From: Chloroflexota bacterium
GTDB lineage: Bacteria > Chloroflexota > Dehalococcoidia > DSGV01
Length of the DNA: 45,556 nucleotides
Direction of reading: 5' to 3'
Assembly (NCBI GenBank): GCA_021787985.1
Contig: JAJYLG010000018.1
Span: 1 to 45,556 of the forward strand
Below are positions 21,786 through 42,203 of this stretch, piece by piece. Made by a program: the position numbers and the translations under genes. Below the pieces are notes generated by a model that was not told the DNA's origin, ran no database searches, and saw nothing but the letters and a program-made list of their open reading frames with translations. Every line of letters starts with the position of its first letter. Positions within the stretch are counted from its first letter, which is position 1.

Positions 21786-24725
21786 CTAGGGAACTGAGAT
21801 GTCAACCGCGTTGCTCGACGATCCCAGGGAGCGGCTGTCGCCGCTCCAGCTTGCGCTGGCGACGAACTCGCCGGCGAACGGTGGCGTCCAGGTGACCCGC
21901 GCCACCCCGCCGGACGGCGTCGCGGTCAGCGTCGTTCGGTAGTAGCAACGGTAGCCGTGGCAGCCGCCTATCAGGAAGAAGGTGACCGTGCCGTCACTCA
22001 CGGCCGGCGAGATGGTGGCCGTGAGCGTGTACGGCCCCCACCCGGAGCCGCGCACGGCCAGGGTGGTGGTGGACGACGCGATGTACTGGAACACGTCGGG
22101 CGCATGCGCCGTGGATGTGCCGGTCGGCACGGTCACGGTGACGTCGACTTTCCCGGAGCCCGGCGGGCTCACCGCGATGATCTGTTGGTCGGAGTCCGCG
22201 GTGAAGCTCTGCGCGGGCGTTCCGCCGAAGGACACCGCGGTGGCACCGGCGAAGCCGTAGCCGCTGACCGCCACCGTCGTGCCGCCCGCGGGAGAGCCGT
22301 AGGCCGGATCCAGCCCGGTCACCACCGGCGCGGCCAGGTAGGTGAACTGGTCGTCCTTCGAGGTCCCCGAGGCCCCACCGACCGTGGTCACGGTCACATC
22401 CACCGTGCCGGCGGCGTGGGCCGGCGTCACGGCGCTGATCTCCGAGCCGGACTTGACCGTGAAGCGCTGGGCGGGCGTTCCGCCGAAGTCGACGGCGCTG
22501 GCGCCGGAGAAGCCCGAGCCGGTGATGTCCACTGTGGTCCCCCCAGCCACGGACCCCATCGACGGGTAGACGCTCCACACCGACGGGCCGGCGGCGAAGG
22601 TGTACCGGTCGGCCGCCGAGGTCGCCGAGGTCCCGCTGGCCGCGGTGATCGTGACGTCCACCGTGCCGGCGGCGTCGGCCGGCGTCACGGCGCTGATCTC
22701 CGAGTCGGACTTCACGATGAAGCTCTGCGCCGGCGTTCCGCCGAAGTCGACGGCGGTGGCGCCGCCGAAGCACATACCGGTGATCTGCACGGTGGCGCCG
22801 CCGGCGGCGGAGCCGGCGTTCGGCTGTACGCCGGTGACGACCGGCGCGCCTGGCAGGGTAAGCTGGACGTCCGACGCCGGTCCGGCTGGAAACGAGCCAC
22901 TGGTGAGCGTCAGCGAGGGGCTCGTCCACACGGTCTGGCCGCCGACGGCCACCGCCAGGTCGAAGCCGAAGCTGTCCGCGGGGCTGTAGCTGGGGCTGTC
23001 CAGCGCGACCACCACGGGACAGGCCTGCGGCGTACCGCTCACCTGGGTGGGCCCGTTCCCGCTCAGCGCCCGCTGGGTGTCGCCGTAGCCGGGGGCGCTC
23101 ACCTCGACCTGCAGCGGGCTTCCCGTCAGGCCGACGGCGCCGCAGACCTCCAGCGTCACGCCCAGGCTGGTGTCAGGGATGCCGAGCGTGATGCCCGGGC
23201 AGGCCACCGCGGGCACGTTCTGGGTCTGGCCCGCGGTCGGCGCCGGGTCGCTGGTCTGGTTGCTCTCCGCCAGAGTGGAGCTCGGCCCGCCAACCTGCCA
23301 GCCGCCCAGGCAGGTGCTCACCGCGAAGTTGAGCCCTACCGCCGTCCCCGCGCCGACAGAGAAGCTCTCCGACCCCATGGGCGCCTGCGGCGTCCACGCC
23401 AGCGACAGCGGGTCCGGCGTCCCCACGCTCGGCGGACTGCCCGCGCCGGCATCGAGGAGCATCGGCCAGTCCCAGGTCACCCCAAAGGTATCGATGGTCT
23501 GGACCTGGACGCTGACGCTGGTGTTGCATCCGAACACGTTCCACGACACGAGCTGAATGGAGGGACTGGTCCAGTTGATGCCGGGCACCCCCCAGCTCCC
23601 GCTGAACGTAGTCGTCTGCGGCGACGCCGAGACCGAAGCGGCCCGCAGCGAGCCCGGTGTGGCGTTGATGCCGGGGTCGCCCGCCAAGCCTGCCCCCGCG
23701 GAGGCAGGGGGCGCCGACGAGACCTCCGCGCCGGCGGCGCCGGGGCCCGCGGGCTGCACCGCGCTCGGCACTTGCTCCAGAAGCTGCGCCTCGAGCACGT
23801 CGCCGGATAGCGAGCCGGCAGCCAACGCCGGCGTCCCCGGCTGCAGCGCGGACAGCCCACCCTCCACCAGCACGTGGGTGCCGCTGCTGACCTCCACGGT
23901 CACGTCCGTTCCCGCTGTCCCGGCCGCCGGATGCTGCTCCACCAAGCGCGGCGTGGTCACGGCGCAGCCCGGCAGGCCGATGCCCGCGCAGCCCCCGCTG
24001 ACCGGGATGCCCGCTTGCTGCACCACCAGCCGGCCGCTGCTGGCGTCGACGGACACCACCGCGCCGAGCACGGCCACGTCGCTCGGGTGCTGCGTGGAGA
24101 CAGTCAACTGACCCGCCAGCCCTGCGAGCGTCCCGGGGGCGGTGGGGTCGAAGCGGTAGTACCAGCGGTCGGCCACGCCGCGGAACGGTATAGTGGGATA
24201 CCACAGCACCACCCAGCCGGACGGCGCCGGCCAGACGTCCCCCTCGTTGGGGTGCGCCCAACCGCCGCCGCAGGCGCCGGCTTGACCGGCCGGCTCGGTG
24301 TACACCCGGCACGACTGCCCGGGCGCCAGCGTTCCCTGCAGGACGAACCGGTTGGCGTTCTCGGGCGTCTGCACTTGCAGCGCGTCCAGCGTGGCCGCCG
24401 CTCCGCCCACGTTCCCGATCTCCACGTACTCCTGTTGCGGGTCGCCCGCCCCGGCCAGCACGCCCACGGCCACCGTGCGGACCGCCGGCCAGCCGAGCGT
24501 CTGGGTGAACTGGGCGATCACCGCCAGGTCACCGGCCCCCACGTGCATCCGGATGTAGGCGGCCAGCACGTCGAGGAAGGTGGGCTGCGGGTTGCCGAGC
24601 GCCTGGAGCAGCCCCCCCAGCTCCCCGTGGGTGTTGTCCCAGAAGCCTTGCCGGAGCGGGTCGCACTGGAGCTGGACGTCGAGATGCTCCGGGATGCAGC
24701 GGCGCGTGCGGTCCCGGTCGGGCAC
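21786..24725 (-). CDS. Large surface protein: lamin-tail module, TIG repeats, Ig-like end
   Basis: About 979 aa from GTG 24725; the true 5' end is uncertain. Residues about 9-90 repeat the helical block of the 3916 protein (DVLAAYIRMHVGAGDL, TQTLGWPAVR), then a lamin-tail domain (EYVEIGNVGG, LAPGQSCRVYTEPAGQAG). The middle 430 residues are beta-rich (VVQQAGIPVSGG, FSGSWGVPGINWTSPS). Three IPT/TIG domains follow (SAAGGATVQITG, SVAGGTTVDITG, SPAGGTTVAVSG with FGGTPAQ in each) and a final Ig-like domain (GEFVASASWSGDSRS). Such architecture is typical of secreted adhesion or cell-surface proteins. No signal peptide precedes the module in this frame; the frame is open upstream but encodes only the shadow of NrfD. 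It may therefore be a 5'-truncated gene. Confidence 0.7.
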   Translation of the reverse strand: MPDRDRTRRCIPEHLDVQLQCDPLRQGFWDNTHGELGGLLQALGNPQPTFLDVLAAYIRMHVGAGDLAVIAQFTQTLGWPAVRTVAVGVLAGAGDPQQEYVEIGNVGGAAATLDALQVQTPENANRFVLQGTLAPGQSCRVYTEPAGQAGACGGGWAHPNEGDVWPAPSGWVVLWYPTIPFRGVADRWYYRFDPTAPGTLAGLAGQLTVSTQHPSDVAVLGAVVSVDASSGRLVVQQAGIPVSGGCAGIGLPGCAVTTPRLVEQHPAAGTAGTDVTVEVSSGTHVLVEGGLSALQPGTPALAAGSLSGDVLEAQLLEQVPSAVQPAGPGAAGAEVSSAPPASAGAGLAGDPGINATPGSLRAASVSASPQTTTFSGSWGVPGINWTSPSIQLVSWNVFGCNTSVSVQVQTIDTFGVTWDWPMLLDAGAGSPPSVGTPDPLSLAWTPQAPMGSESFSVGAGTAVGLNFAVSTCLGGWQVGGPSSTLAESNQTSDPAPTAGQTQNVPAVACPGITLGIPDTSLGVTLEVCGAVGLTGSPLQVEVSAPGYGDTQRALSGNGPTQVSGTPQACPVVVALDSPSYSPADSFGFDLAVAVGGQTVWTSPSLTLTSGSFPAGPASDVQLTLPGAPVVTGVQPNAGSAAGGATVQITGMCFGGATAVDFGGTPAQSFIVKSDSEISAVTPADAAGTVDVTITAASGTSATSAADRYTFAAGPSVWSVYPSMGSVAGGTTVDITGSGFSGASAVDFGGTPAQRFTVKSGSEISAVTPAHAAGTVDVTVTTVGGASGTSKDDQFTYLAAPVVTGLDPAYGSPAGGTTVAVSGYGFAGATAVSFGGTPAQSFTADSDQQIIAVSPPGSGKVDVTVTVPTGTSTAHAPDVFQYIASSTTTLAVRGSGWGPYTLTATISPAVSDGTVTFFLIGGCHGYRCYYRTTLTATPSGGVARVTWTPPFAGEFVASASWSGDSRSLGSSSNAVDISVP
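22080..22842 (-). repeat. Three tandem IPT/TIG-coding repeats of about 250 bp
   Basis: Units at about 22583-22842, 22333-22583 and 22080-22333. The first two are nearly identical at DNA level around 22395-22500 and 22655-22760 (shared GGCGTCACGGCGCTGATCTC and GGCGTTCCGCCGAAGTCGAC). The third is more diverged. Recent duplication or homogenisation by recombination is likely. Confidence 0.8.
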
Positions 24726-25612
24726 AGCGCCCGGGCCGCCACACCGTCCGCGCACAGCGGCGGCGGCCACGGCGCACGCGGCATCGGGTACGGCGACGTC
24801 CCGTTCGGGCACAGGGCCGCCGCCGCCGCGGACACTCGCGAGAGCAGGGCCACGGCCACGGCCACCAGAGCGAGCGAGACCCAGAAGAACACGGACAGCG
24901 ACCCGCTCAGCAGGAAACGCACGGCCGCTGCCGCGCGGGTGTCCTCGGCACCGGTCCATAGGAACAGGCCGAGCACGACCCCTTCCGCGAGGACGCCCAC
25001 CAGGGTCGTCTGTCCCAGCCGCCGGACGGCAAGCGCCCGCTCCTGACCCTCGGCCGCGACATACCTGGCCAGGATCATCAGGAACGCCGCCCCCACCGCC
25101 CAACTCATCGTCAGAAAGAGCAGCGGCAGGTAGCCGTTCCACAAGGCGATGTTCGTGGCGTGGAACTCGAACCCCGAGTAGACCGTCGCCAGCAGGGCCA
25201 GGACCATGATGGGAACGGCGATGACCCTTCTCGTCGCTCGTCCTCGGGCGAGCGCGAGGTCGTACAGTCCGAGCGCGAGCAGCAGCACGATGAACAAGGC
25301 GCCCCATGGCATCCACGAGCTTCCCAGTCGGCTGGTCCATCCGGAGGTCATCGACAGGTAGAAGCGCAAGGGCTTGCCCAGGTCCCACACGAACGGGCCG
25401 AGAGCCACCGCCAGCCCGACCATCCCCGATATCAGCCCCGCACGGACCAGTGCTTGGCTCTGGCCACGCCAGTCTTCCTGAGCAGCGAAGAACATGGTCA
25501 TGGCGCCCGAGCCGGCGAAGAACAGGGCGATCGCAGCCTTCCAGCCCCAGACCACCCGCACATCAGCCGGTAGCCACGACGGCCCCCAATGCATGAGCCA
25601 CCATTCCGGCAT
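24518..25612 (-). pseudogene. NrfD/PsrC-type membrane subunit with lost C-terminus
   Basis: ATG 25612 follows a GGAGGAGGAG ribosome site. Residues 1-260 match the NrfD/PsrC quinone-reactive membrane subunit of multi-subunit oxidoreductases: seven membrane helices, FVWDLGKPLRFYLSM with the conserved GKPLRF, SSWMPWGALFI, and SGSLSVFFWVSLALV. After residue 260 (nt 24835) the frame turns into Ala/Arg/Ser-rich shadow of the lamin-tail gene until TAA-type stop at 24518, and the last NrfD helix is missing. No iron-sulfur or catalytic partner gene is adjacent. Either a recombination breakpoint near 24700-24835 fused two genes out of frame or the assembly is chimeric. A shortened product could still insert in the membrane. 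Confidence 0.72.
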
Positions 25613-25752
25613 GCGCTCCTCCTCCTCCAGGGACAACGAGTCCCCAGCCTTCCGTCTTCTCCCAGCGGCGAGCTCGTGACCTCCTGTTGGGCTGGAATGC
25701 TAGCAACGAGGTGCGCGGAAAACCCTGTGGAACCGGTGAACTCTGCCGGAAA

Positions 25753-27210: not shown

Positions 27211-27381
27211 CTACCGCATCGGGTTGAGCGTGGCCAGCAGCCAGGCGACCGAGCCGGCGAAGAGGCCCACTGCCGCCAGCGTCGAGCATGTGTCGCGGTG
27301 CGCCCGGCCGCGTAGCCTGGTGGCCCGGCGCTGCGGTTGCGCCGCGGGCGCCGCTTCCACCATCATCTCCTCACGTTGCAT
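27211..27381 (-). CDS. 56-aa single-TM protein, last gene of the cytochrome b operon
   Basis: Start ATG 27381 lies 2 nt after the upstream stop (TGACGATG) with GGAAAGGGG about 10 nt upstream. The N-terminal half is basic (QRRATRLRGRAHRD), then one membrane helix (STLAAVGLFAGSVAWLLATL) and a short end. Size and position suggest a small accessory subunit of the cytochrome complex. No family recognised. Confidence 0.65.
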   Translation of the reverse strand: MQREEMMVEAAPAAQPQRRATRLRGRAHRDTCSTLAAVGLFAGSVAWLLATLNPMR

Positions 27382-27383
27382 CG

Positions 27384-27692
27384 TCACGACCCCTTTCCGT
27401 CTTGCGACTGACCATCCCCGGCGCCTGGAAGGCGACGCGCACTTGCCGCGCCTCGCCGGGAGCGTGGTGCGCGACCGCCCGCTGCCCCGCGCCGCGGCCA
27501 GGTGTCGTGCACCCGGCCCATCTGGCCACACAAGACGATGAACGCAGCAGCCGCCAGCACCAGCCAGGCCACATTGATGCCGCCTCGGCCGGGCGTGAAG
27601 AAGCCTTCCAGGCCCCTGCCGAGGCCATAGACCCCGGCCGCCGAGGCGATGGCGAAGAGCGCCAGCTCGCCGATATCCTTCCGAGCACCCAT
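27384..27692 (-). CDS. 102-aa two-TM protein in the cytochrome b operon
   Basis: Start ATG 27692, 10 nt after the stop of the cytochrome b C-terminal subunit. Two membrane helices: IGELALFAIASAAGVYGLG (about 6-24) and NVAWLVLAAAAFIVLCGQMG (about 38-57), followed by a basic, Gly/Arg-rich cytoplasmic tail (PRRGAAGGRAPRSRRGAA). I do not recognise it. The close spacing and coupling to the next gene argue for a structural or assembly subunit of the same membrane complex. Confidence 0.7.
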   Translation of the reverse strand: MGARKDIGELALFAIASAAGVYGLGRGLEGFFTPGRGGINVAWLVLAAAAFIVLCGQMGRVHDTWPRRGAAGGRAPRSRRGAASARRLPGAGDGQSQDGKGS

Positions 27693-27702
27693 GACCGCCT
27701 GC

Positions 27703-28701
27703 TCAGATTCCGGCGCCGGGCATCGGCGCGCGCCCGTGATAGCCTTCCGCACGGGGCATGTTCTCTGGCTCGTCCAGCTCACCGCGGACCGGATAGCGAT
27801 AGATCAGGCGATAGAGCCGCAGGCGCCGCGGCAGGTCACGCAGGCCCGGCAGCAGCGGGACCGCGAAGAGCAGGAACGCGGCGATCAGCAAGTTGTCGAG
27901 GACGAAGCCACCTCCCGTCGCGCCGTTGGGCAGCTTCACGTGGACGACCGCCGGAAGGATCAGGTACCACGACCCCACGCCGAAGCCACGCTCCTTGACC
28001 ATGCCCCACTGGTCATCCGTCAATCCCTGGTCGACGGCGGCATTCAGCATCCTCGGGTGGTCGTAGAGCCAGATGTTTACCAGATGGAACAGGTGGCCCG
28101 GCTCCACCCCTTGCAGGTATTGCTCGAGGAAGCCGCTCTGCGCGAGCTTCAAGTCGGCCTGCACGAGCGTGGGGACCGGCCCGAAGTCGCCGGTGAGCGA
28201 GCTAGTCCGGGAGTAGTCTGGGCTGGCGGTTCCCATGTCGCCAGCCCCGCTCGACTCGGGGGTGATGGTCCCCAGGGCCTTCTCATACGCAGCAGCCCAG
28301 GCCTGCCGCTGGTCGGCGCCGGCAGCGTCGTACGTCTTGAGCGCGGACTGGATGTCGGCGCCGAGCAAAGGCGCGGCCTCTCGCAGCGGGTTGAGCACGA
28401 AGACATCGGCCGGTTTCGCCATGCCGCGCTCGCTCTCGTTCATGGTGGACGCCGATGTTCCGGCAAGCTCCTGCGTGAACGCGAGTATCGCGCCGCCAGG
28501 GTCTCTCGTGCTCGCGCCCGCGACCGTCTCGCGCGGCCAGTTGGGCGAACCGACGAATGCGGCCAGCAGAACTGCCACGACCAGCGCCGCCACCGCCAGC
28601 AGAGGGTACTTGTAGAAGGCGTGACGTACCGGCCGCGCCGATGGGTGGTCATCCGCGGGCACCACCGGAATCACGTGCTGAGAACCCTGCCCATGCGCCA
28701 T
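27703..28701 (-). CDS. Cytochrome b C-terminal (subunit IV-like) protein with large loop insertion
   Basis: 332 aa. Begins 2 nt after the stop of the cytochrome b6-like gene. TM1 (residues about 31-51, YKYPLLAVAALVVAVLLAAF) corresponds to helix E. Instead of the usual 30-residue loop, about 190 mostly hydrophilic residues follow, then GSWYLILPAVVHVKLPNG (243-260), which aligns with the Qo-site PEWYFLP...R.IPN segment, and a further helix (LLIAAFLLFAVPLLP). The PEWY glutamate position is Gly/Ser here (GSWY, 243-246). The cytoplasmic end is basic (RRLRLYRLIYRY). Role: quinol-reactive half of a split cytochrome b, by neighbour and partial alignment. Catalytic competence in a Q-cycle is doubtful. 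Confidence 0.75.
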   Translation of the reverse strand: MAHGQGSQHVIPVVPADDHPSARPVRHAFYKYPLLAVAALVVAVLLAAFVGSPNWPRETVAGASTRDPGGAILAFTQELAGTSASTMNESERGMAKPADVFVLNPLREAAPLLGADIQSALKTYDAAGADQRQAWAAAYEKALGTITPESSGAGDMGTASPDYSRTSSLTGDFGPVPTLVQADLKLAQSGFLEQYLQGVEPGHLFHLVNIWLYDHPRMLNAAVDQGLTDDQWGMVKERGFGVGSWYLILPAVVHVKLPNGATGGGFVLDNLLIAAFLLFAVPLLPGLRDLPRRLRLYRLIYRYPVRGELDEPENMPRAEGYHGRAPMPGAGI

Positions 28702-28703
28702 GT

Positions 28704-29384
28704 CTAGTACTCCTCTGCAGCGCCGTTCTTCGACGCGGGCTGCCCCAGCGGCTCTGAGACACCCTGCAGCCGGACCAGCAGTACGTGGGCGAAGATCAGC
28801 GCGCCCATGATCACCGGGATGACGGCCACGTGGATGAGCAAGTCGGCGGAGAAATCGGCCGGCGCGAAGAGGTGGAAGAAGAACGGCTCGACGAACAGCA
28901 TGTCGGTCGAGTGCATGGAGACGAACTGCGACTCCCAATCACCGCGGGCGAGCAGGCCAAAGAGGTTCTCCCCCATGGCCAGCATGAAGACGGTGAGGCC
29001 GATCCACCAGTTCAGGAGGCGCCGGCCGCGGAAAGAGCCCGTCGCCCACACGCGGAATGCGTGCAGGATCGCGAAGAAGAAGAACCCCTGGGCGCTCCAG
29101 TAGTGGAACGACTTGAGGAATCGGCCGAACGGCTGGGTGAGCCACCAGTACGGCCCCAGCCAAGCAAGGAGGATCCCGCTCAGCACCAGGAAGACGAACA
29201 ACAGGAACGTCAGGCCGCCCATGGCGTACCAGTAGGACTCGGCGTAGAACGGCACCGACTTGCCGAACATGCCACCGAACGGCGGCGCGTAGGCAAACGA
29301 CTCGAGCAACGCGCGTAGCCGGCCGTGCTCGGCGACGCGGTCTCTGAAGCTGTCCCGCCCGACGCCGATCGATCGCTGCGCCAT
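28704..29384 (-). CDS. Cytochrome b6-like di-heme subunit
   Basis: 226 aa; ATG 29384 has AGGAAGG 8 nt upstream. Four transmembrane helices carry the two heme b sites: His94 and His108 (FHYWSAQ...ILHAFRVWATGSF) and His185 and His200 (LLIHVAVIP...FAHVLLVRLQG), with the 14- and 15-residue spacings of cytochrome b6 rather than mitochondrial cytochrome b. PFYAESYWYAMGGL and the glycine-rich first helix also fit. The Qo-side surface loop reads RGDWESQFVSMHSTDM. The operon continues with a divergent subunit IV and two small membrane proteins; no Rieske or cytochrome c gene is in the window. Transcribed divergently from a NarL-type response regulator. Confidence 0.92.
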   Translation of the reverse strand: MAQRSIGVGRDSFRDRVAEHGRLRALLESFAYAPPFGGMFGKSVPFYAESYWYAMGGLTFLLFVFLVLSGILLAWLGPYWWLTQPFGRFLKSFHYWSAQGFFFFAILHAFRVWATGSFRGRRLLNWWIGLTVFMLAMGENLFGLLARGDWESQFVSMHSTDMLFVEPFFFHLFAPADFSADLLIHVAVIPVIMGALIFAHVLLVRLQGVSEPLGQPASKNGAAEEY

Positions 29385-29541
29385 CGGCTTATACCTTCCT
29401 CTCTCGGACCACGGCCGCTGCACGATCCTTCGCCACCCCAACGGCGCCGACCGCACGTGGCCCGCAGTCATATCGTGCGCGGCAGGCAGCGCTGCTCACA
29501 TCCGGCGGAGCCGCCGATCGCGTTGCTTGAATCGGCCGGGC

Positions 29542-29561
29542 CCTCCGCCATCTGGCGGAGG
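29542..29561. other. 8-bp inverted repeat in the cytochrome b / regulator intergenic region
   Basis: CCTCCGCC and GGCGGAGG flank ATCT. It lies 44 nt before the TATAAT box of the regulator gene, in the divergent promoter region, and could be a binding site or a hairpin. Confidence 0.4.
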
Positions 29562-29604
29562 CAGGCTCCGGTGAATGTCGCAACCGGAGACCACGGGGGT
29601 CACC

Positions 29605-29610
29605 TATAAT
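29605..29610 (+). promoter_or_regulatory. Consensus TATAAT box before the NarL-type regulator
   Basis: Perfect -10 hexamer with start expected near 29617 and a leader of about 20 nt. No matching -35 hexamer at 16-18 nt, which suggests an activator-dependent promoter. Confidence 0.55.
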
Positions 29611-29637
29611 CGCCGTGGAAGCGGGTCGGAAACACGC

Positions 29638-30324
29638 ATGACCACTGACCGCGACGCCCTTCCGGTCCGGGTGCTCATCGCCGACGACCACGCGGTGGTC
29701 AGGCAAGGCACCCGTGAGCTGCTCGCGCGCGAACGCGACATCCAAGTGGTCGGCGAGGCGGCCGATGGCGCGGAGGCGGTCCGCCGCGTTCGCGAGCTGC
29801 GGCCCGATGTGGTCATCCTCGACGTGGCGATGCCGGTCCTCAACGGCATCGAGGCGACCAGGGCGATCAAGCGGGAATGCCCCGACACGCGCGTGCTCGT
29901 GCTGACCGCCTACGACTACGAGCAGTACGTCGTCGCGCTCGTGGAAGCGGGCGCGGCCGGCTACATCCTCAAGACGGCCAACTACTCCGAGGTGATCAGC
30001 GCCATCCGGGCCGTCTACGCGGGCGAGAGCGTGCTGCACCCGGCCATAGCGCGCAAGGTCTGGGATCGGCTGTCCGGCGCCTCACGACAGGCGTCCGGAG
30101 GCAAAGTGAGCGGTGCCCAACTCTCCCAACGCGAGCGCGAGGTCCTCCTGCTGGCCGCTCGCGGGCTGAGCAACAAGGAGATCGCGGTACGGCTCAGCCT
30201 GAGCTCGCGGACGGTGCAGAGCCACCTGCAGAGCGTCTTCGGCAAGCTTGGCGTCGCCTCACGCACGGAGGCCGTCGCCCGCGGATTGCGAGAGGGCTGG
30301 TTGCACCTGGAAGAGCTGGCATGA
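29638..30324 (+). CDS. NarL/FixJ-family response regulator
   Basis: 228 aa. Receiver domain residues 9-130: acidic pocket ADDH, phosphoacceptor Asp62 in VVILDVAMP, LTAYDY switch region and YILKTANYSE with the conserved Lys. The C-terminal LuxR helix-turn-helix (about 163-225) has LSQREREVLLLAARGLSNKE and SSRTVQSHLQSVFGKLGV. The stop overlaps the kinase start (ATGA), so the pair is a two-component system. Divergent from the cytochrome b operon, which it may control, together with itself. The frame extends upstream to 29575, but ATG 29638 behind a TATAAT box is preferred. Confidence 0.93.
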   Translation: MTTDRDALPVRVLIADDHAVVRQGTRELLARERDIQVVGEAADGAEAVRRVRELRPDVVILDVAMPVLNGIEATRAIKRECPDTRVLVLTAYDYEQYVVALVEAGAAGYILKTANYSEVISAIRAVYAGESVLHPAIARKVWDRLSGASRQASGGKVSGAQLSQREREVLLLAARGLSNKEIAVRLSLSSRTVQSHLQSVFGKLGVASRTEAVARGLREGWLHLEELA

Positions 30325-31388
30325 CGGCGGCCGAGACCCTTCAGCCGAACGCACCCCAGCGCGAGCTCACCGGCTTTCTCCGCCGTCTTCCCAGCCGGCT
30401 GCGCGACCGCCGCTTCTGGATGACCCAGGCGATGGTGCTGGCCATCGCTACCGCGCACGGCTTGATCGAAGCGCACGGCCGGTCAGCGCTGCTCGTGGGC
30501 TTCCACCATGTGTCGGTGGTGCTGTACACGATCCCGGTCGTCTATGCCGGACTCAACTTCGGCTGGGAGGGCGGCATCCTCACCGGCGTGCTCGCCACCC
30601 TGTTGACCGTTCCCAACCTCGTGCTCTGGCATCGCGCCGACTTCGCCTGGGCGGGCGAGCTCGTGGAAACCGTCATGATCATGGTCGTCGGCAGCGCGCT
30701 GGGCTTGCGCGTCGAACAGGAACGAACGCTTCGGCGAAGGGTGCAGGACTACGCCGGCCGCCTCGTGCAGGCCCAGGAGGCGGAACGGACGCGGATCGCC
30801 CGCGACCTCCATGACGACTCCGTGCAGTCCCTCGTGCTCGTCTGCCGTGGCCTCGACCGCTTGCTCAACAACTCGGCGTGCCCAGCCGCCGCCGAGGGCC
30901 CGCTCCACGACCTGCGGCATCAGGTCCAGGACGTCGCGGATGGCCTGCGGCGCTTCAGCACTGACCTGCGCCCCGCCATCCTGGATGACCTCGGACTGGC
31001 CGCCGGTCTGCAGTGGCTGGCCTCAGACCTCGAGCAGCGCACCGGCATTCGGGCCTTGTTCGAGGTGCGCGGTCGCGTGCGACGCCTCGATCGCGACAAA
31101 GAGCTGGCCGTCTTCCGCATCGCGCAAGAGGCGCTACGCAACGTGGAGAAACACTCGCACGCGACGCGAGTGCGCGGCTGCCTCAGCTTCCGACGAGGCA
31201 GCATCTCAGCGTCGATCGACGATGACGGCGCCGGATTCGCCGCGTCCGGCGGCGGCGTGGCGGAGCACAGTGAGCACCTGGGCCTCATCGGCATGCAGGA
31301 ACGCGCCCGTCTGGCGGGCGGGCGGGTGACCATCCGCAGCGTTGCCGGCAGCGGCACCCGCGTGCAGCTCGATTTGCCCAACTCCTGA
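30321..31388 (+). CDS. Membrane sensor histidine kinase (HisKA_3), partner of the NarL-type regulator
   Basis: 355 aa. Four membrane helices at about 35-140 ([64 protein letters not shown]) form the input domain, paralogous to that of the kinase at 18510. His164 in [12 protein letters not shown] is the phosphoacceptor. HATPase_c has [12 protein letters not shown] (N box), DDDGAGF and [15 protein letters not shown]. There is no PAS domain, in contrast to the 18510 paralogue. The short sensor exposes few residues outside, so the signal is probably sensed in or near the membrane, for example the quinone pool; that is inference. Confidence 0.92.
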
Positions 31389-36296: not shown

Positions 36297-36752
36297 ATGA
36301 AGAAGGCTCAGCGGGGGAGGACCGGGCGCAACACGAGGGGGCGTCGCGGGCTCTGGTTCCGAGCGGGGACCTTCGCCGTGGTCCTGGTGGCCCTGGCCGG
36401 AGTCATCTATGCGCTGTGGCCGAAGTCCCCCAAAGCGGCACAGCGGTACGACGAGAAAGTGACCGTCTCCATGGCGGGGTTCGACCCGAACGTCATCCAG
36501 CTACGGGTGGGCACGGCTCACGCTCTCTGGCTAGTGAATCCGGATAGCCCGTACCACAGCGACGGCGGCGGGGTGCACCAGTTCGCCGTTCCCGACCTCG
36601 GCATCGATCTGAGGGTCCAGCCCAGGAGCACGGCCATCGTGCAGATCCCTGCAGGCGTCGCGCCCGGCAAGTATCGCTTCTACTGCGACACCTGCTGCGG
36701 CGGCAAGGACAACCCGTCGATGAACGGCGTCCTGCAGGTGACCAGCGCATGA
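36297..36752 (+). CDS. Membrane-anchored cupredoxin with CuA-like loop
   Basis: 151 aa. Basic N-terminus, one membrane anchor (about 23-42), then a cupredoxin domain: VTVSMAGFDPNVIQLRVG, GGGVHQFAVPDLG with a candidate ligand His, and near the end FYCDTCCGGKDNPSMNGVLQV. That last loop resembles the CuA loop C-x3-C-x3-H-x2-M, but the His position is Asp and the Met is shifted by one, with an extra Cys. It likely binds copper outside the membrane. The ATG of the CcdA gene overlaps its stop (ATGA). Confidence 0.85.
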   Translation: MKKAQRGRTGRNTRGRRGLWFRAGTFAVVLVALAGVIYALWPKSPKAAQRYDEKVTVSMAGFDPNVIQLRVGTAHALWLVNPDSPYHSDGGGVHQFAVPDLGIDLRVQPRSTAIVQIPAGVAPGKYRFYCDTCCGGKDNPSMNGVLQVTSA

Positions 36753-37558
36753 CTCGGGCTGTCGGGCTGCGGCGTGGGCTCCTCGCCCTGTCCACCGCGA
36801 CCCTCCTGGCCGCGCTCGTGCTCCTGGCCGCCCGCGGGACGACCTCCGGCGTCGCCCTGCCGACGGTGCTGGGAGCGGGCTTCATCGACGGGCTGAACCC
36901 ATGCGCGGTCGCCGTGCTGCTCATCTTCGTGTCCTCATTGCTCGCCACCGTCGAACGAGGGGTGCGAGCGGGCGAGGCGGCGCGGCTTCCCATTCTGATC
37001 GGCGGTGGAGTCTATGTCGGCGGGCTGTACGTGACCTACCTCGCGATCGGCGTCGGGCTGCTGAGCGCCCTGGGCCTCCTCGGTTCGGTGGCGCTGCTGC
37101 AGCAGACGCACATCGTGGGTCGAGTTGCGGCCCTGCTCGCGGTCGGGCTCGGAGTGCTCACACTGCAGGAGGTCCTGATCCCCGAATGGGGGCAGCGCTT
37201 GGTGATGCCACCCGTTTTCCACGAGCGAGCGCGGCGCATGGCGCGCTGGGTGAGCCTGCCCGGGCTTTTCGTCGCGGGAGCCTTCATCGGCGTCTGCACC
37301 GTCCCCTGCTCCGGGAGCGTCTACCTTGCGACCGTGACGCTCCTCTCGCGTCAAACGACCTATCTGACGGGGCTGGCGTACCTGGCGCTGTACAACGTGA
37401 TGTTCGTCACGCCGCTGCTGGCGCTGCTGGCGTTCGCCACGGCCCGCCCCACCTATCGCCTGCTGGCGCGGGCGCAGCTCCGCAGCCGAGCCGTGATCAA
37501 GCTGGCGCTCGCAGCCACGACGATCGGAATCGGTCTGCTGACGCTCGCGGTGATGTGA
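36749..37558 (+). CDS. CcdA/DsbD-type transmembrane thiol-disulfide transporter
   Basis: 269 aa with about seven membrane helices. CcdA signature: GFIDGLNPCAVAVLLIFVS in helix 1 and GVCTVPCSGSVYLATVTLLS in helix 4, giving the paired intramembrane cysteines that carry electrons from cytoplasmic thioredoxin to the outside. The internal repeat of two three-helix units is recognisable. Usual roles are cytochrome c maturation or reduction of periplasmic copper-site cysteines; with a CuA-like cupredoxin directly upstream and overlapping, the second role is favoured. Confidence 0.9.
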   Translation: MTRAVGLRRGLLALSTATLLAALVLLAARGTTSGVALPTVLGAGFIDGLNPCAVAVLLIFVSSLLATVERGVRAGEAARLPILIGGGVYVGGLYVTYLAIGVGLLSALGLLGSVALLQQTHIVGRVAALLAVGLGVLTLQEVLIPEWGQRLVMPPVFHERARRMARWVSLPGLFVAGAFIGVCTVPCSGSVYLATVTLLSRQTTYLTGLAYLALYNVMFVTPLLALLAFATARPTYRLLARAQLRSRAVIKLALAATTIGIGLLTLAVM

Positions 37559-37629
37559 ACGGGTGATGTGCTGCCGGCCTCGAACGCGCGCTGCCGGCCG
37601 AACCAGCAGCGGAGCTGGAGGAACCACCG

Positions 37630-37782
37630 ATGGCAAACGTGAAGGATCCGGTCTGCGGGATGGAAGTGGACCCCGCCAAGGCTCCGGTCCACCGGGAGGA
37701 GTACGCCAGCAGGACGTACTACTTCTGCTCGGGCGCCTGCCAGAGGCAGTTCAGGTCGAGCCCCCAGAAATACGCGTCGTGA
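37630..37782 (+). CDS. YHS-domain mini-protein
   Basis: 50 aa, below usual ORF cut-offs. ATG 37630 has GGAGG 9 nt upstream. The whole protein is one YHS (TRASH-like) domain: KDPVCGMEVDPAKAP, then TYYFCSGACQRQFRSSPQKY. The three Cys (DPVCGM, FCSGAC) form the expected metal site. Such domains occur beside copper and mercury ATPases and may deliver or sense metal. Confidence 0.85.
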   Translation: MANVKDPVCGMEVDPAKAPVHREEYASRTYYFCSGACQRQFRSSPQKYAS

Positions 37783-38141
37783 TGCCGGGCACGCCGAGCA
37801 CGCCACCCTGCCGCCACGCTCTTCTTGACCGCCCGCTGGAGGGAGCGCCTCGAGCAGGGTGGTCCGTAACCGCGATCGACGCGAAACCGGAGGTGACCGG
37901 CGTCACGCGGCGCCGCTGGTGGCGAGCCGCCGGGCCGTTCCCGCATCGTGCGCGCGTCCCAGCCGGGCACGGCAGGATCTTCAGTAGCCACTCAGGCGCG
38001 GCTCAGGTCGCTCTCAACCCTGCGCCCGAACATGAGCCTGGCGGCCCCGGGGCGCCTGTTTCCGGGGCCGAGCAGCGGGCCGGTACTGCGCCCGACACCG
38101 CGCACGATCCGGCGAAACGGGCGCGGAGGCTGCACGGAAAG
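37783..38141. other. Intergenic, no supported gene
   Basis: Open frames cross it but show no family features, and the downstream YHS-HMA gene has its own start at 38142. No hairpin or promoter stood out. Confidence 0.4.
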
Positions 38142-38546
38142 ATGACGGCATGTGTTCCCCAGGCGATTGACCCGGTCTGCGGCGCGCCGCTCTGCGCGTG
38201 GGACCGTCGGTGGGATGTCAGCTCCGGGCCAGACGTCTATCACTTCTACTCGGAGGCTTGCTCTCGCAGGTTCTCGGCCGAGGAGCGGGCGGGCGGGCGC
38301 TCTTCTGCTGCCGCCTCGATTCCCCGGGCACGGGCCATGATCCCCATCTGGGGGCTGGCCTGCGGGGGTGGCAGAGCGCAATCTATCGAACGCGCCCTCG
38401 TGTGCAGGCCCGGCGTGCTTCGCGCGTACGTGAATCCGGCCACCGAGATGGCCTACGTCGAGTACCGGGCTGACATGGTCGCGGTCGACCGGATCGTGGC
38501 AGCCATCGAGGCGCTAGGATACCGGGTGGGCTCCGTCGAGCAGTAG
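38142..38546 (+). CDS. YHS-HMA two-domain protein
   Basis: 134 aa. YHS half: QAIDPVCGAPLCAWDRR and YHFYSEACSRRFSAEE, with the second metal motif FCSxxC changed to FYSEAC. Linker AAASIPRARA. HMA half: IPIWGLACGGGRAQSIERAL ... CRPGVLRAYVNPATEMAYVEY and IEALGYRVG, where the GMxCxxC motif is reduced to GLACGGG, a single Cys. It looks like a free-standing copy of the N-terminus of the ATPase that follows. Metal binding is probably weakened; a chaperone or regulatory role is possible. Confidence 0.8.
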   Translation: MTACVPQAIDPVCGAPLCAWDRRWDVSSGPDVYHFYSEACSRRFSAEERAGGRSSAAASIPRARAMIPIWGLACGGGRAQSIERALVCRPGVLRAYVNPATEMAYVEYRADMVAVDRIVAAIEALGYRVGSVEQ

Positions 38547-38639
38547 GCGGGGCGCCGCGGGTGACGATGCTGCTCGGGCTGACCAGCGAAGGAGACTGAG
38601 GACCTGGCGCGAGCACCAAGCAGCGTGCTGGAGGTGACA

Positions 38640-41318
38640 ATGCCGCTGGAACAAGCCGGAACGCCGGACGCAAGAGTCCGTGACGTTGTCTGCGGGATGG
38701 CGATCGCGGACGACCGCGCGGCGCATCGCGAGACTGTCCGCGGACACGTGTTCTTCTTCTGCTCTGAAGATTGCCGCGACCGGTTCCGGTCCCACCCGGA
38801 GCGGTACCTGCCGCGGTCCGTCTCGGCCACTACGGGCGTGTCCGACACGCCCGGCGAGCGCGTTATCGAGCTGCTGCTCGGCGGGCTGACCGCGGAGACC
38901 GCGGCGGCCGTGGAAGCACGGCTGCGGGCGATGCCGGGCGTGGAGCAGGCCGATGCGAACCCCGCCGCCAAGCGCGTGCAAGTCCTGTTCGACCCCGCCG
39001 TGGTGACCGCCGAGGACCTGGTCAAGGCGACCGAGTCGGCCAGTGGCGGACCGCTGGTGGCGACGGTGCGCCTGGGCATCGGCGGAATGTACTGCGCCAC
39101 CTGCGTGGTCGATCTGGAGCGAGCACTGGAGTGCGTGCCCGGCGTCGCGCTTGCCACCGTCAATCCGGCAACCGAAGAAGCGACGGTAACCTACCAGCCG
39201 CGGCACGTGGATATGCCCGCCATCGAGCGCGCCATCGAGAGCGCGGGGCTCGAAGTCCGAAGGGCGGCCGCACCGGCGGAGGACGCCATCTCGCGGCAGG
39301 AGCGCGAGCGCGACCGCGAGTATCGCACGCTGATGCGGAAGTTCTGGTTCGCGGCCGTCATCTCCGTCCCGGTAGTCGTGCTGTCCTATCCACAGCTATT
39401 CACGCTCGACCGATGGAGCGCATTCGCACGCGGGTCGGACTCCCTGTGGTGGATGTGGCGCGCGCTCGGACTCGCGACCTTGCCGGTCCTGGTGTGGTCC
39501 GGGAGCCAGTTCTACAGCGGAGCGTGGCAGGGACTCCGGCACCGCTCGGCCAACATGCACACGCTCATCGCGCTCGGGATCTCCGCCGCCTGGCTGTACT
39601 CGACCGTGGCCGTCCTCCGGCCGTCTCTCTTCCCCGCAAGCCGATTCGCGGAAGTTTACTACGACGTCAGCGCGGTTGTAGTGGCGCTCGTCACCCTGGG
39701 CCTGGCGCTCGAGGCGAAGGCGAAGGGCAAGTCCTCGGAGGCGATCCGGAAGCTTGTCGGGCTGCAGGCGAAAACCGCCCACGTGATACGCGGCGGCCAG
39801 GAGCGCGACCTCCCGGTCGAGGAAGTGGTGGTGGGTGATCTGCTGCTGGTGCGTCCGGGGGAGAAGGTCCCGGTCGACGGCATCGTCCTCGAGGGTGAGT
39901 CAGCCCTCGATGAGTCGATGGTGACCGGCGAGTCGCTCCCGGTGGACAAGCGACCGGGGGACGAGGTGATCGGGGCCACCGCCAACAAGACCGGCGCGTT
40001 CAAGTTCCGGGCCTCTCGCGTGGGCAAGGACACAGCGCTAGCCAGTATTGTGCGCATGGTCCAGGACGCACAGGCTACCAAGCTTCCCATCCAGCGGGTG
40101 GTCGACCGCGTGGCGGGGGTCTTCGTCCCGGCGGTCATGATCCTGGCGGTCGTCTCCTTCGTGACCTGGTACATCCTGGGCCCCACACCGGCGCTCGCGT
40201 ATGCGGTCATCGTGGCCGTGACCGTGCTCATCATCGCGTGTCCCTGCGCGCTCGGGTTGGCAACGCCGACCTCGCTCACAGTCGGGATGGGCAAGGCGGC
40301 CGAGCAAGGGATCCTCTTCCGTGGGGGTGACGCGCTGCAGGCGGCCCGCCGCTTGGGCACGGTCGTGCTCGACAAGACCGGCACGATCACTTGGGGGAAG
40401 CCGGCACTGACCGATGTCCTGGTCGGGCCGGGGTTCGATCAGAGCGAAGTGCTGCGCCTGGCGGCCGCGGTCGAGCGCGGATCGGAGCACCCAGTCGCCC
40501 AGGCAGTGGTGACGGGCGCTCGAGCGCGCGGGCTGGTGGCCCCGGAGCCGGCAACCTTCCAAGCGATTCCCGGCCGTGGCGCGGAAGCCGATGTCGAGGG
40601 ACGCCGTGTGCTGCTGGGCAACCGCGGGCTGATGGTGGACCGAGGGGTGACTACCGAGGAGCTGGAGCCGCGCGCCGAGGCGCTGGCCGGCGACGGCAAG
40701 ACGCCCATCTACATAGCGATCGATGGCCTCGTGGCCGGCGTGATCGCGGTCGCGGATACCATCAAGGACGACTCCCTGCCGGCCATCCGCCGCCTCAAGC
40801 AGCTCGGCATCGAGGTGGCGATGGTCACTGGCGACCACCGCCGTACGGCCGAAGCGATCGCGCGCCAGGTGGGAGTGGACCACGTGCTCGCCGAGGTCCT
40901 GCCCCGGGACAAGGCGCACGAGGTCCGCAAGCTGCAGCTCGAGGGGAAGCGGGTCGGCATGGTGGGCGACGGCATCAACGACGCCCCCGCCCTCACCCAG
41001 GCCGACGTCGGGATCGCCATCGGCACCGGGACCGACGTGGCCATTGAGGCATCGGACGTCACCTTAGTCGGCGGTAGCCTGCTGGGCGTCGTCACCGCGG
41101 TCGAGATCTCACGTGCCACCATGGGCAACGTCTACCAAAACCTGTTCGGCGCGTTCGTCTACAACACGGCAGGCCTGCCTATCGCGGCGGGTGTCTTCTA
41201 CCCGCTGGTCGGCCTACTGCTCTCGCCCCTACTGGCCGCCGCCGCGATGGCCTTCAGCTCGGTGACCGTGGTGAGCAACGCCAACCGGCTGCGGCGGTGG
41301 AGGCCGAAGGAGGCATGA
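38640..41318 (+). CDS. copA: Copper-exporting P1B-type ATPase with YHS and two HMA domains
   Basis: 892 aa. ATG 38640 has GGAGGTG 4-5 nt upstream (preferred to GTG 38625). Order: YHS domain ([13 protein letters not shown] ... [12 protein letters not shown]), HMA-1 that has lost its CxxC ([14 protein letters not shown]), HMA-2 with GMYCATC, then eight membrane helices and the P-type core: MVTGES, CPC at 534-536 in the transport helix, DKTGT with phosphorylated Asp578, [25 protein letters not shown] and [23 protein letters not shown] and [15 protein letters not shown] fit the P1B-1 Cu(I) subgroup. It pumps Cu(I) out of the cytoplasm. A cupredoxin gene overlaps its stop. Confidence 0.93.
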
Positions 41319-41698
41319 CCATGCCGGTCGACCAGGTCGCGGTGCTACTCGCCGGAACGGCCGCCATCGTTCTCATCGCCTGGTTCTCTTGGGGTCCGCG
41401 AGGCGCCGGAGTGAAGGCAAACCTGACCAGTTCGGGCTACCAGGAAGCGATGGTCTTGGTGAAGGGCGGCTACACACCCGACGTGATCGCGGTGGAGCAC
41501 GGCAAGCCGGTGCGGCTGAGCTTCCGCCGCGAGGAGACTGCCGCCTGCTCGGAGATGGTGGTGTTTCCCGATTTCAACCGGTCGGCGCGGCTGCCGGAGG
41601 GGGAGGTCGTGCCGGTCGAGTTCCTGCCGGAGCGGCCCGGCGAGTACGAGTTCTCGTGCCAGATGGGCATGTTCCGGGGCAAGCTCATCGTCGAGTAA
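41315..41698 (+). CDS. Membrane-anchored cupredoxin partner of the copper ATPase
   Basis: 127 aa; ATG 41315 overlaps the ATPase stop (ATGA) with AAGGAGG before it. One N-terminal anchor ([20 protein letters not shown]), then a cupredoxin_1-type domain: [32 protein letters not shown] and [19 protein letters not shown]. Candidate copper ligands are Cys in ACSEM, and Cys and Met in SCQMGM. Such proteins often follow CopA and may accept the exported Cu(I). Confidence 0.85.
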
Positions 41699-41752
41699 GG
41701 CAGCTCGAGGAACGGCCAACACCGGTTCCCCTCATGGTCGCGAAGCAGACGG

Positions 41753-41780
41753 TTGACAAGCATACGCGATCGCGTATGCT
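41753..41780 (+). promoter_or_regulatory. mer promoter: TTGACA - 16 nt - TATGCT, leaderless
   Basis: TTGACA at 41753-41758 and TATGCT at 41775-41780. The start codon GTG 41787 is 6 nt after the -10 box, so the transcript should begin at or near the codon itself. No ribosome site is present before it. Confidence 0.75.
41759..41780. promoter_or_regulatory. Perfect 22-bp palindromic operator between -35 and -10
   Basis: Two 11-nt arms, AGCATACGCGA and its exact complement, with no spacer. The palindrome fills the whole spacer plus the -10 box, an ideal place for an ArsR-family dimer to block RNA polymerase until metal is bound. It precedes the regulator and merA. Confidence 0.8.
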
Positions 41781-41786
41781 TTCCTC

Positions 41787-42203
41787 GTGATCAGCGAGCG
41801 CCGCTTGCCCCTCGCCCCCGTCCGCCAGGCACACCCGGGCGCGCTTACGGCCAAGTTCTTCCGCGGGCTGGGCGACGCCACGCGCGTACGCGTCCTTCGG
41901 CTGCTCGAGGACGGCGAGCGCACCGTCTCCGAGCTGCGGGCCGTAATCGGCATCGAGCAGGGCCGGCTGTCCAGCCACCTCGCCTGCCTCCGCTGGTGCG
42001 GCTTCGTCGCCACCCGCCGTGATGGGCGGCGCGTGTATTACTCCTTGCGCGACCCGCGCGTGCTGCGGCTGCTGACGCTCGCCGACGAGTTCTTGGACGA
42101 GCACGGCGACCACGTCGACGTCTGCCGCGTGGTCGCCCGCGAACTGGCACCCGCGCGAGGCGCACACCCCGAACAGGAGGACTGCGATGACCGAACAGAC
42201 TGA
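41787..42203 (+). CDS. ArsR/SmtB-family metal sensor, CmtR-like, controls merA
   Basis: 138 aa, GTG start. Winged helix: TAKFFRGLGDATRVRVLRLL, RTVSELRAVIGIEQGRLSSH and the wing RRDGRRVYYSL. Cys67 and Cys71 in HLACLRWCGFV and Cys113 in VDVCRVVA reproduce, as I recall, the thiolate site (C57, C61, C102) of mycobacterial CmtR, a Cd/Pb sensor. Related ArsR-type regulators control actinobacterial mer operons. A second Cys/His tail (GAHPEQEDCDD) is extra. Its stop lies inside merA (17-nt overlap), so both are translated together. Predicted repressor released by Hg(II). Confidence 0.9.
   Translation: MISERRLPLAPVRQAHPGALTAKFFRGLGDATRVRVLRLLEDGERTVSELRAVIGIEQGRLSSHLACLRWCGFVATRRDGRRVYYSLRDPRVLRLLTLADEFLDEHGDHVDVCRVVARELAPARGAHPEQEDCDDRTD

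Follow-up and report, generated by a model that had tools for sequence, protein, structure and literature searches.

Can a membrane complex be built on the core of cytochrome b and dispense with the Rieske protein, and what would such a complex do? The question is raised by an operon in the window, by which we mean the whole stretch of DNA analysed, the 45,556 nucleotides of contig JAJYLG010000018.1 from a Chloroflexota bacterium (assembly GCA_021787985.1). In bc-type complexes, cytochrome b and the Rieske protein are, to our knowledge, viewed as an inseparable pair. Four minus-strand genes lie head to tail: a gene for a b6-like di-haem cytochrome b subunit of 226 aa (28704-29384) comes first, followed by those for a 332-aa partner resembling subunit IV (27703-28701) and for two small membrane proteins of 102 aa (27384-27692) and 56 aa (27211-27381). 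The successive gaps in the window gene calls are 2, 10 and 2 bp, in agreement with the near-zero spacing of the two small transmembrane genes reported in an earlier note made from the sequence alone. The four-gene cytochrome b operon without a linked Rieske gene is thus confirmed as a real observation. The source genome (3.5 Mb) carries the complex in three copies, the window copy being 61% identical to the second (C14) and 32% identical to the third (C13).

An HMM built from these three copies detected the partner in 60 of 400 sampled Chloroflexota genomes. With a larger profile, it was found in 11 of the 296 genomes of the phylum comprising an Arthrobacter genome (G464, locus L150) and in 3 of the 299 genomes of the phylum comprising an Alicyclobacillus genome (G465). 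A pattern scan of GTDB contigs yielded 493 tblastn-confirmed loci, the best 80 of which include Streptacidiphilus, Kitasatospora, Arthrobacter, Actinotalea, Alicyclobacillus and Dormibacterota; the carriers are hundreds of bacteria, soil-dwelling and acid-loving. The b6-like gene adjoins the partner gene in every partner-bearing locus of the first locus set examined. Among 94 non-redundant loci, a separate b6 gene lies in the main cluster in 75 and both genes are joined in one reading frame in 16, and short contigs and a simple gene caller may explain the few that remain. The core genes are therefore almost always adjacent or fused and, because the pair is conserved in this way, the partner and the b6-like protein very probably belong to one complex. 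In the tree, unfused rows stand between the fused forms from Chloroflexota and those from Actinomycetota, a placement that, as read, suggests two independent fusion events, a single origin followed by loss being the alternative. The tree comprises two clades, the commoner clade B and the rarer clade A, a deeply separated branch which includes the window copy. Two Alicyclobacillus-like clade A copies (L079 and L082) lie on contigs binned as Campylobacterota/Hippea, reflecting either mis-binning or transfer.

The b6-like subunit is recognised by PF13631 (1.3e-9) and by cytochrome b6 in the PDB (4.6e-10). Its histidines are at positions 20, 94, 108, 158, 171, 185 and 200. As the earlier note had proposed, the four haem ligands are kept: His94, His108, His185 and His200 (codons at 29103-29105, 29061-29063, 28830-28832 and 28785-28787, minus strand) are invariant in an alignment of 18 family members with two canonical b6 proteins that the source genome also encodes, so that the protein has the four conserved histidines, on helices B and D, of a di-haem cytochrome b. 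Residues Y53, G56, R122, W126, R205, G208 and P212, likewise common to the family and canonical rows, occupy inner-side positions by the standard topology. The cd1 motif of the Qo site, LPWDQ, is absent from all 18 family rows and present in the canonical b6 proteins of loci L018 and L020 of the same genome. At residue 54, which corresponds to the ligand that binds haem c(n) covalently in b6f (YCxGG), several b6-like proteins of clade A carry Cys, whereas the window copy and L053 carry Ala; no Cys was seen there in the aligned clade B rows.

The partner has no sequence match in Pfam, NCBIfam or the PDB. It exhibits two hydrophobic helices, at about residues 27-56 and 261-290, and its model (mean pLDDT 80.3) can be read as helix E, an outer helical insert, an altered Qo loop and helix F, with no helix G. 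The predicted extracytoplasmic insert, which comprises about 165 residues and precedes the Qo loop, is all-helical and forms a confident domain at residues 60-224 (28030-28524, minus strand; pLDDT mostly 86-98). Between the point where helix E ends (model residue 50) and W245 there are about 194 residues, and GSWY stands at residues 243-246, followed by LILPAVVHVKLPNG; the earlier description of helix E, then some 190 residues and GSWY in place of PEWY was accurate. In the segment standing where canonical proteins have PEWY (residues 237-246; 27964-27993, minus strand), Glu237 precedes the Trp by eight residues and is invariant in 76 of 76 sequences; the model has low confidence around it (residues 230-244, pLDDT below 50). 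Clade A proteins have GSWY or GPWY at the PEWY position and clade B proteins mostly PGQxWLW, so that neither PEWY nor a recognised variant is found in the family. The missing PEWY glutamate by itself proves little, because a Rieske-linked complex of the same genome (L020) has APWY instead. The earlier note took a normal Q-cycle to need the PEWY glutamate and a Rieske centre; on the glutamate a correction is called for, its loss not being diagnostic when taken alone. According to a review, the Qo motif varies systematically, its second residue correlating with cofactor potentials and quinone species (PMC9162462).

By analogy with the standard cytochrome b topology, the insert would lie outside the membrane, on the Qo face. 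The 76-sequence alignment contains no conserved Cys or His within it, and for this reason the insert itself is probably not a redox domain; nor does the alignment contain a conserved Cys, His or Met metal site there. The role of docking domain is a guess.

The relationship of the partner to cytochrome b, which the earlier note had put forward as a point to be checked, is supported by the natural fusions. A fold search with the whole 332-aa model as the only query gave no useful match, and the insert may yet have a known fold. We turn to the model of one natural fusion of b6 and partner (L068), to which the window partner is 26% identical in the alignment. This model (mean pLDDT 83.9, pTM 0.80) aligns with mycobacterial QcrB over 287 residues spanning model residues 11-505, with a Z score of 19.6, above the level given for chance helical matches, at 3.6 A. 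Compared with full-length cytochrome b, it receives low TM-scores from Foldseek (0.3-0.5), as expected because of the large insert. The modelled fusion thus places helices E and F in a cytochrome b fold, and on this predicted structure the 332-aa partner is the C-terminal half of cytochrome b.

Small membrane proteins accompany both clades. The 102-aa protein of the window (hydrophobic segment 35-62) is the conserved third gene of clade A, where a gene of about 100 aa lies downstream of the core genes, and shares 40-59% identity with its counterparts in eight other distinct clade A loci. The 56-aa protein, with one hydrophobic segment, becomes 59 aa long if translation starts at the GTG at 27390. 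It is conserved in part of clade A, with relatives in a Ktedonobacterales MAG (E 2e-6), in Lacisediminihabitans (E 1e-4) and, weakly, in the C14 paralogue (E 0.004). A one-helix gene of about 50 aa is located upstream of the core genes in 62 of 79 clade B loci, and the Alicyclobacillus paralogue L159 has small genes on both sides.

The absence of Rieske and cytochrome c genes from the window, claimed in the earlier note, was confirmed: no called gene contains CxxCH, and no Rieske gene lies on this contig, the six Rieske-domain hits of the genome all being elsewhere. Among 1,131 neighbour proteins of the family, a loose Rieske motif occurs in 3 and CxxCH in 2, none of them within two genes; the two CxxCH proteins are three and seven genes away. 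No linked bc-type Rieske gene was found across the 94 non-redundant loci and no cytochrome c1, cc or f subunit was found for the family, so that the survey of gene order which the earlier note had suggested shows the pair conserved without a linked bc-type Rieske. A Rieske gene (L159, 9343-10323, minus strand) stands directly upstream of one of the three copies of Alicyclobacillus sp. ALC3. It was rejected as a counter-example, being a VanA-type oxygenase.

A Rieske subunit could still be encoded in trans. The source genome has at least three bc-type Rieske genes, and three of its cytochrome b loci (L018, L019 and L020; two with PEWY and one with APWY) have Rieske genes of their own. All 70 carriers checked other than the source genome encode some Rieske-domain protein and, for that reason, the possibility was checked in carriers with few such hits. 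In the genus g132, represented by three Chloroflexota MAGs that are incomplete (88-92% complete; G270, G333 and G377), the only PF13631 cytochrome b is that of the present family. Each of the three encodes two Rieske-domain proteins, soluble and ferredoxin- or NirD-like, without CPCHG; the bc-type form (CxHxxC...CPCHG) was not found among them. COX1, the haem-copper oxidase, was not found in the three MAGs, and cytochrome bd oxidase is present in 2 of 3. The three incomplete MAGs all agree, and the complex of this genus apparently functions with no bc-type Rieske protein. In the source genome a Rieske subunit might be encoded away from the operon.

We specifically analyzed the gene neighbourhoods. 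Clade B operons often have as neighbours response regulators, pyridoxamine-phosphate-oxidase-like proteins (PF12900) and USP, CBS and GAF proteins, as raw counts taken without a genome-wide background. The palindrome GGGNC-N4-GNCCC precedes 18 of 88 operons, where shuffled controls lead one to expect about 2, and the other spacings of the dyad (N2-N8) do not rise above 6, at or near background. For clade B, the box precedes 17 of 74 operons and, elsewhere in the same loci, 42 of 678 other genes (p = 1.3e-5, an approximate value since the loci are related), and many of the 678 comparison genes are themselves USP, DevR/DevS-like or phosphoketolase genes. An exact match is wanting in most individual clade B operons. 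An open dyad scan of the same sequences had first given GGGCC-N4-GGCCC and GGGAC-N4-GTCCC, the degenerate form being tested afterwards; part of the enrichment is therefore due to selection. The likeness of the box to the published OsdR consensus AGGGCCGATCGGCCCT (PMC5069765) provides independent support for the enrichment. Judging by the boxes and the neighbours, the clade B operon is probably part of a DosR/DevR-like hypoxia regulon. A roughly 200-aa protein, hydrophobic in an N-terminal segment, recurs near Chloroflexota clade B operons (L061 10286-10921, L064 4992-5591, L069 12668-13297, L070 6483-7067 and L099 5685-6314). Its L099 copy has no significant Pfam match, and the L061 and L069 genes have a DevR-like box upstream.

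Near the window operon, which belongs to clade A, no OsdR/DevR-like box was matched (29385-29574). The operon is probably controlled by the adjacent two-component system, made of a divergent NarL/LuxR-type response regulator (29575-30324, plus strand), which also accompanies the C14 paralogue and the clade A locus L051, and of a histidine kinase with a HisKA_3 domain match (30321-31388, plus strand). A perfect inverted repeat, CCTCCGCCA-TC-TGGCGGAGG (29542-29561), is a candidate operator between the divergent operons. Scanning 78 clade A neighbours, we counted 5 YHS proteins, 4 P-type ATPases, 3 ArsR regulators and 2 DsbD_TM proteins; none of the metal-linked genes was seen in more than half of the clade A loci, and the family has no regularly linked gene for an electron acceptor or donor. 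Since clade A is deeply separated and the DosR-type evidence comes from clade B only, its role could be different.

Two further features of the window surroundings were recorded. A metal-handling island (36297-42203, plus strand) encodes a cupredoxin-like protein, a YHS-like protein, an 892-aa P-type ATPase with YHS and HMA domains and an ArsR-like regulator. An NrfD/PsrC-like membrane protein (PF03916, 1.1e-16) is encoded downstream of the operon at 24518-25636 on the minus strand, overlapping a long ORF (21786-24725) in a different frame. The C-terminal part of its frame resembles out-of-frame sequence and a frameshift near 24.7-24.8 kb is possible. We rejected it as an associated gene, as it is absent among the recurring neighbours of family loci.

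How does the family stand to known systems? With the b6f, bc and bcc complexes it shares a split b6 and subunit IV or a full-length fold, four histidines with the b6-type spacing of 14/15, helices E and F and small membrane subunits. It differs from them in having no Rieske protein, no cytochrome c1 or f, no PEWY or LPWDQ and no helix G, and in the helical insert before the Qo loop. By descent it is thus a cytochrome b, but one that lacks the Rieske and Qo features by which a bc complex is defined. The best NCBIfam match of the b6-like protein is ExtP (NF040969), a b-type cytochrome encoded in the selenite/tellurite ext cluster of Geobacter, an assignment that was rejected at 71.8 bits for a cut-off of 290. 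The ext cluster includes multiple putative c-type cytochromes (PMC5877670), which are absent at the window operon.

The closest precedent is a passage in which Justice et al. (2014) describe Sulfobacillus operons with petB-homologous di-haem cytochrome b and without cytochrome c or iron-sulfur protein as 'not canonical bc complexes', suggesting another function (PMC4378227). Compared by description, these operons plausibly belong to the same family as the window complex; that passage mentions neither the partner nor the insert, the small subunits or the regulation. We found no description of the family, its insert, distribution or regulation in the open-licence literature. As for the DosR/DevR (OsdR) dormancy regulon, the likeness lies in the enrichment of clade B for the OsdR-like palindrome and in its position beside USP, PF12900, CBS and DevR/DevS-like genes. 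The complex of clade B may be an addition to the known content of the OsdR regulon, because the word cytochrome is nowhere used in the main text of the paper on OsdR in S. coelicolor (PMC5069765).

Taken together, we consider it somewhat probable that the operon encodes a Rieske-independent, non-bifurcating membrane complex on a two-haem cytochrome b core, acting as a quinone-linked electron carrier. For this reading we draw, from sequences and predicted structures, on the fold, the four histidines, the inner-side residues, the loss of the Qo motifs, the insert and the association with small proteins. The quinol-handling complex of different design imagined in the earlier note finds support in the fold, in the lack of a linked bc-type Rieske and in the g132 genomes. 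Quinone would bind at an inner, Qi-like site and electrons would cross the membrane via bH and bL; in the absence of a Rieske protein there would be no quinol bifurcation. The insert would cap the outer side of the complex, and the remodelled outer pocket beneath it would exchange electrons with a second substrate, Glu237 being a likely proton carrier. The most likely direction would be from menaquinol to an extracytoplasmic acceptor or a docked partner, which would give electrons a way out during oxygen shortage or redox stress.

That second substrate might itself be a quinone. The complex would then be a quinol:quinone transhydrogenase with two quinone sites and no other substrate, in which the two haems would carry both electrons from one quinone to another, one on the inner and one on the outer side, so that membrane potential is either coupled or dissipated. 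We regard this as unlikely. In its favour are the retained inner-side residues, the persistence of an outer pocket that contains an invariant Glu, the lack of a linked partner protein, and the presence of the complex in genomes that encode bd oxidase and in which neither haem-copper oxidase nor another cytochrome b was found. However, the canonical Qo motifs are lost, and a capping insert of this size suggests a substrate other than a membrane quinone.

Direct oxidation or reduction of a small extracytoplasmic molecule at the outer pocket (superoxide, Fe(III), Cu(II) or another metal), in a role which would be analogous to that of the cytochrome b561 superoxide oxidase or of a membrane ferric reductase, appears improbable. 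The YHS, P-type ATPase, ArsR and DsbD_TM genes of clade A neighbourhoods speak for it, as do the cupredoxin and the YHS/HMA P-type ATPase of the window; Alicyclobacillus tolerans, a clade A carrier, is also listed in a review of ferric iron reduction by acidophiles (PMC8790237). Yet the insert has no conserved metal site, metal families are not among the commonest neighbours of clade B, and no single metal-linked gene reaches a majority of clade A loci. Finally, an ordinary bc complex with its Rieske protein encoded elsewhere in the genome is very improbable despite the Rieske-domain genes of all carriers checked and the bc-type genes of the source genome, since the latter in L018, L019 and L020 sit with their own cytochrome b genes, no bc-type form was found in g132, both the cd1 motif and PEWY have been lost and the insert would occupy the face where the Rieske head would dock.

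Returning to the Rieske-independent carrier, we tentatively propose that the family represents a widespread, unnamed class of energy complex, in which a cytochrome b core would have evolved away from the Rieske-dependent Q-cycle, gained an outer helical domain and small subunits, and come to work, in Actinomycetota, Chloroflexota and acidophilic Bacillota, as a quinone-linked conduit for electrons that is induced by hypoxia or stress. A conserved family without Rieske protein, including genomes with no other cytochrome b, would show what the cytochrome b core does alone. It would also add a quinone-linked membrane complex to the hypoxia regulons of cultured actinomycetes, and a previously unnamed respiratory complex may await characterisation.
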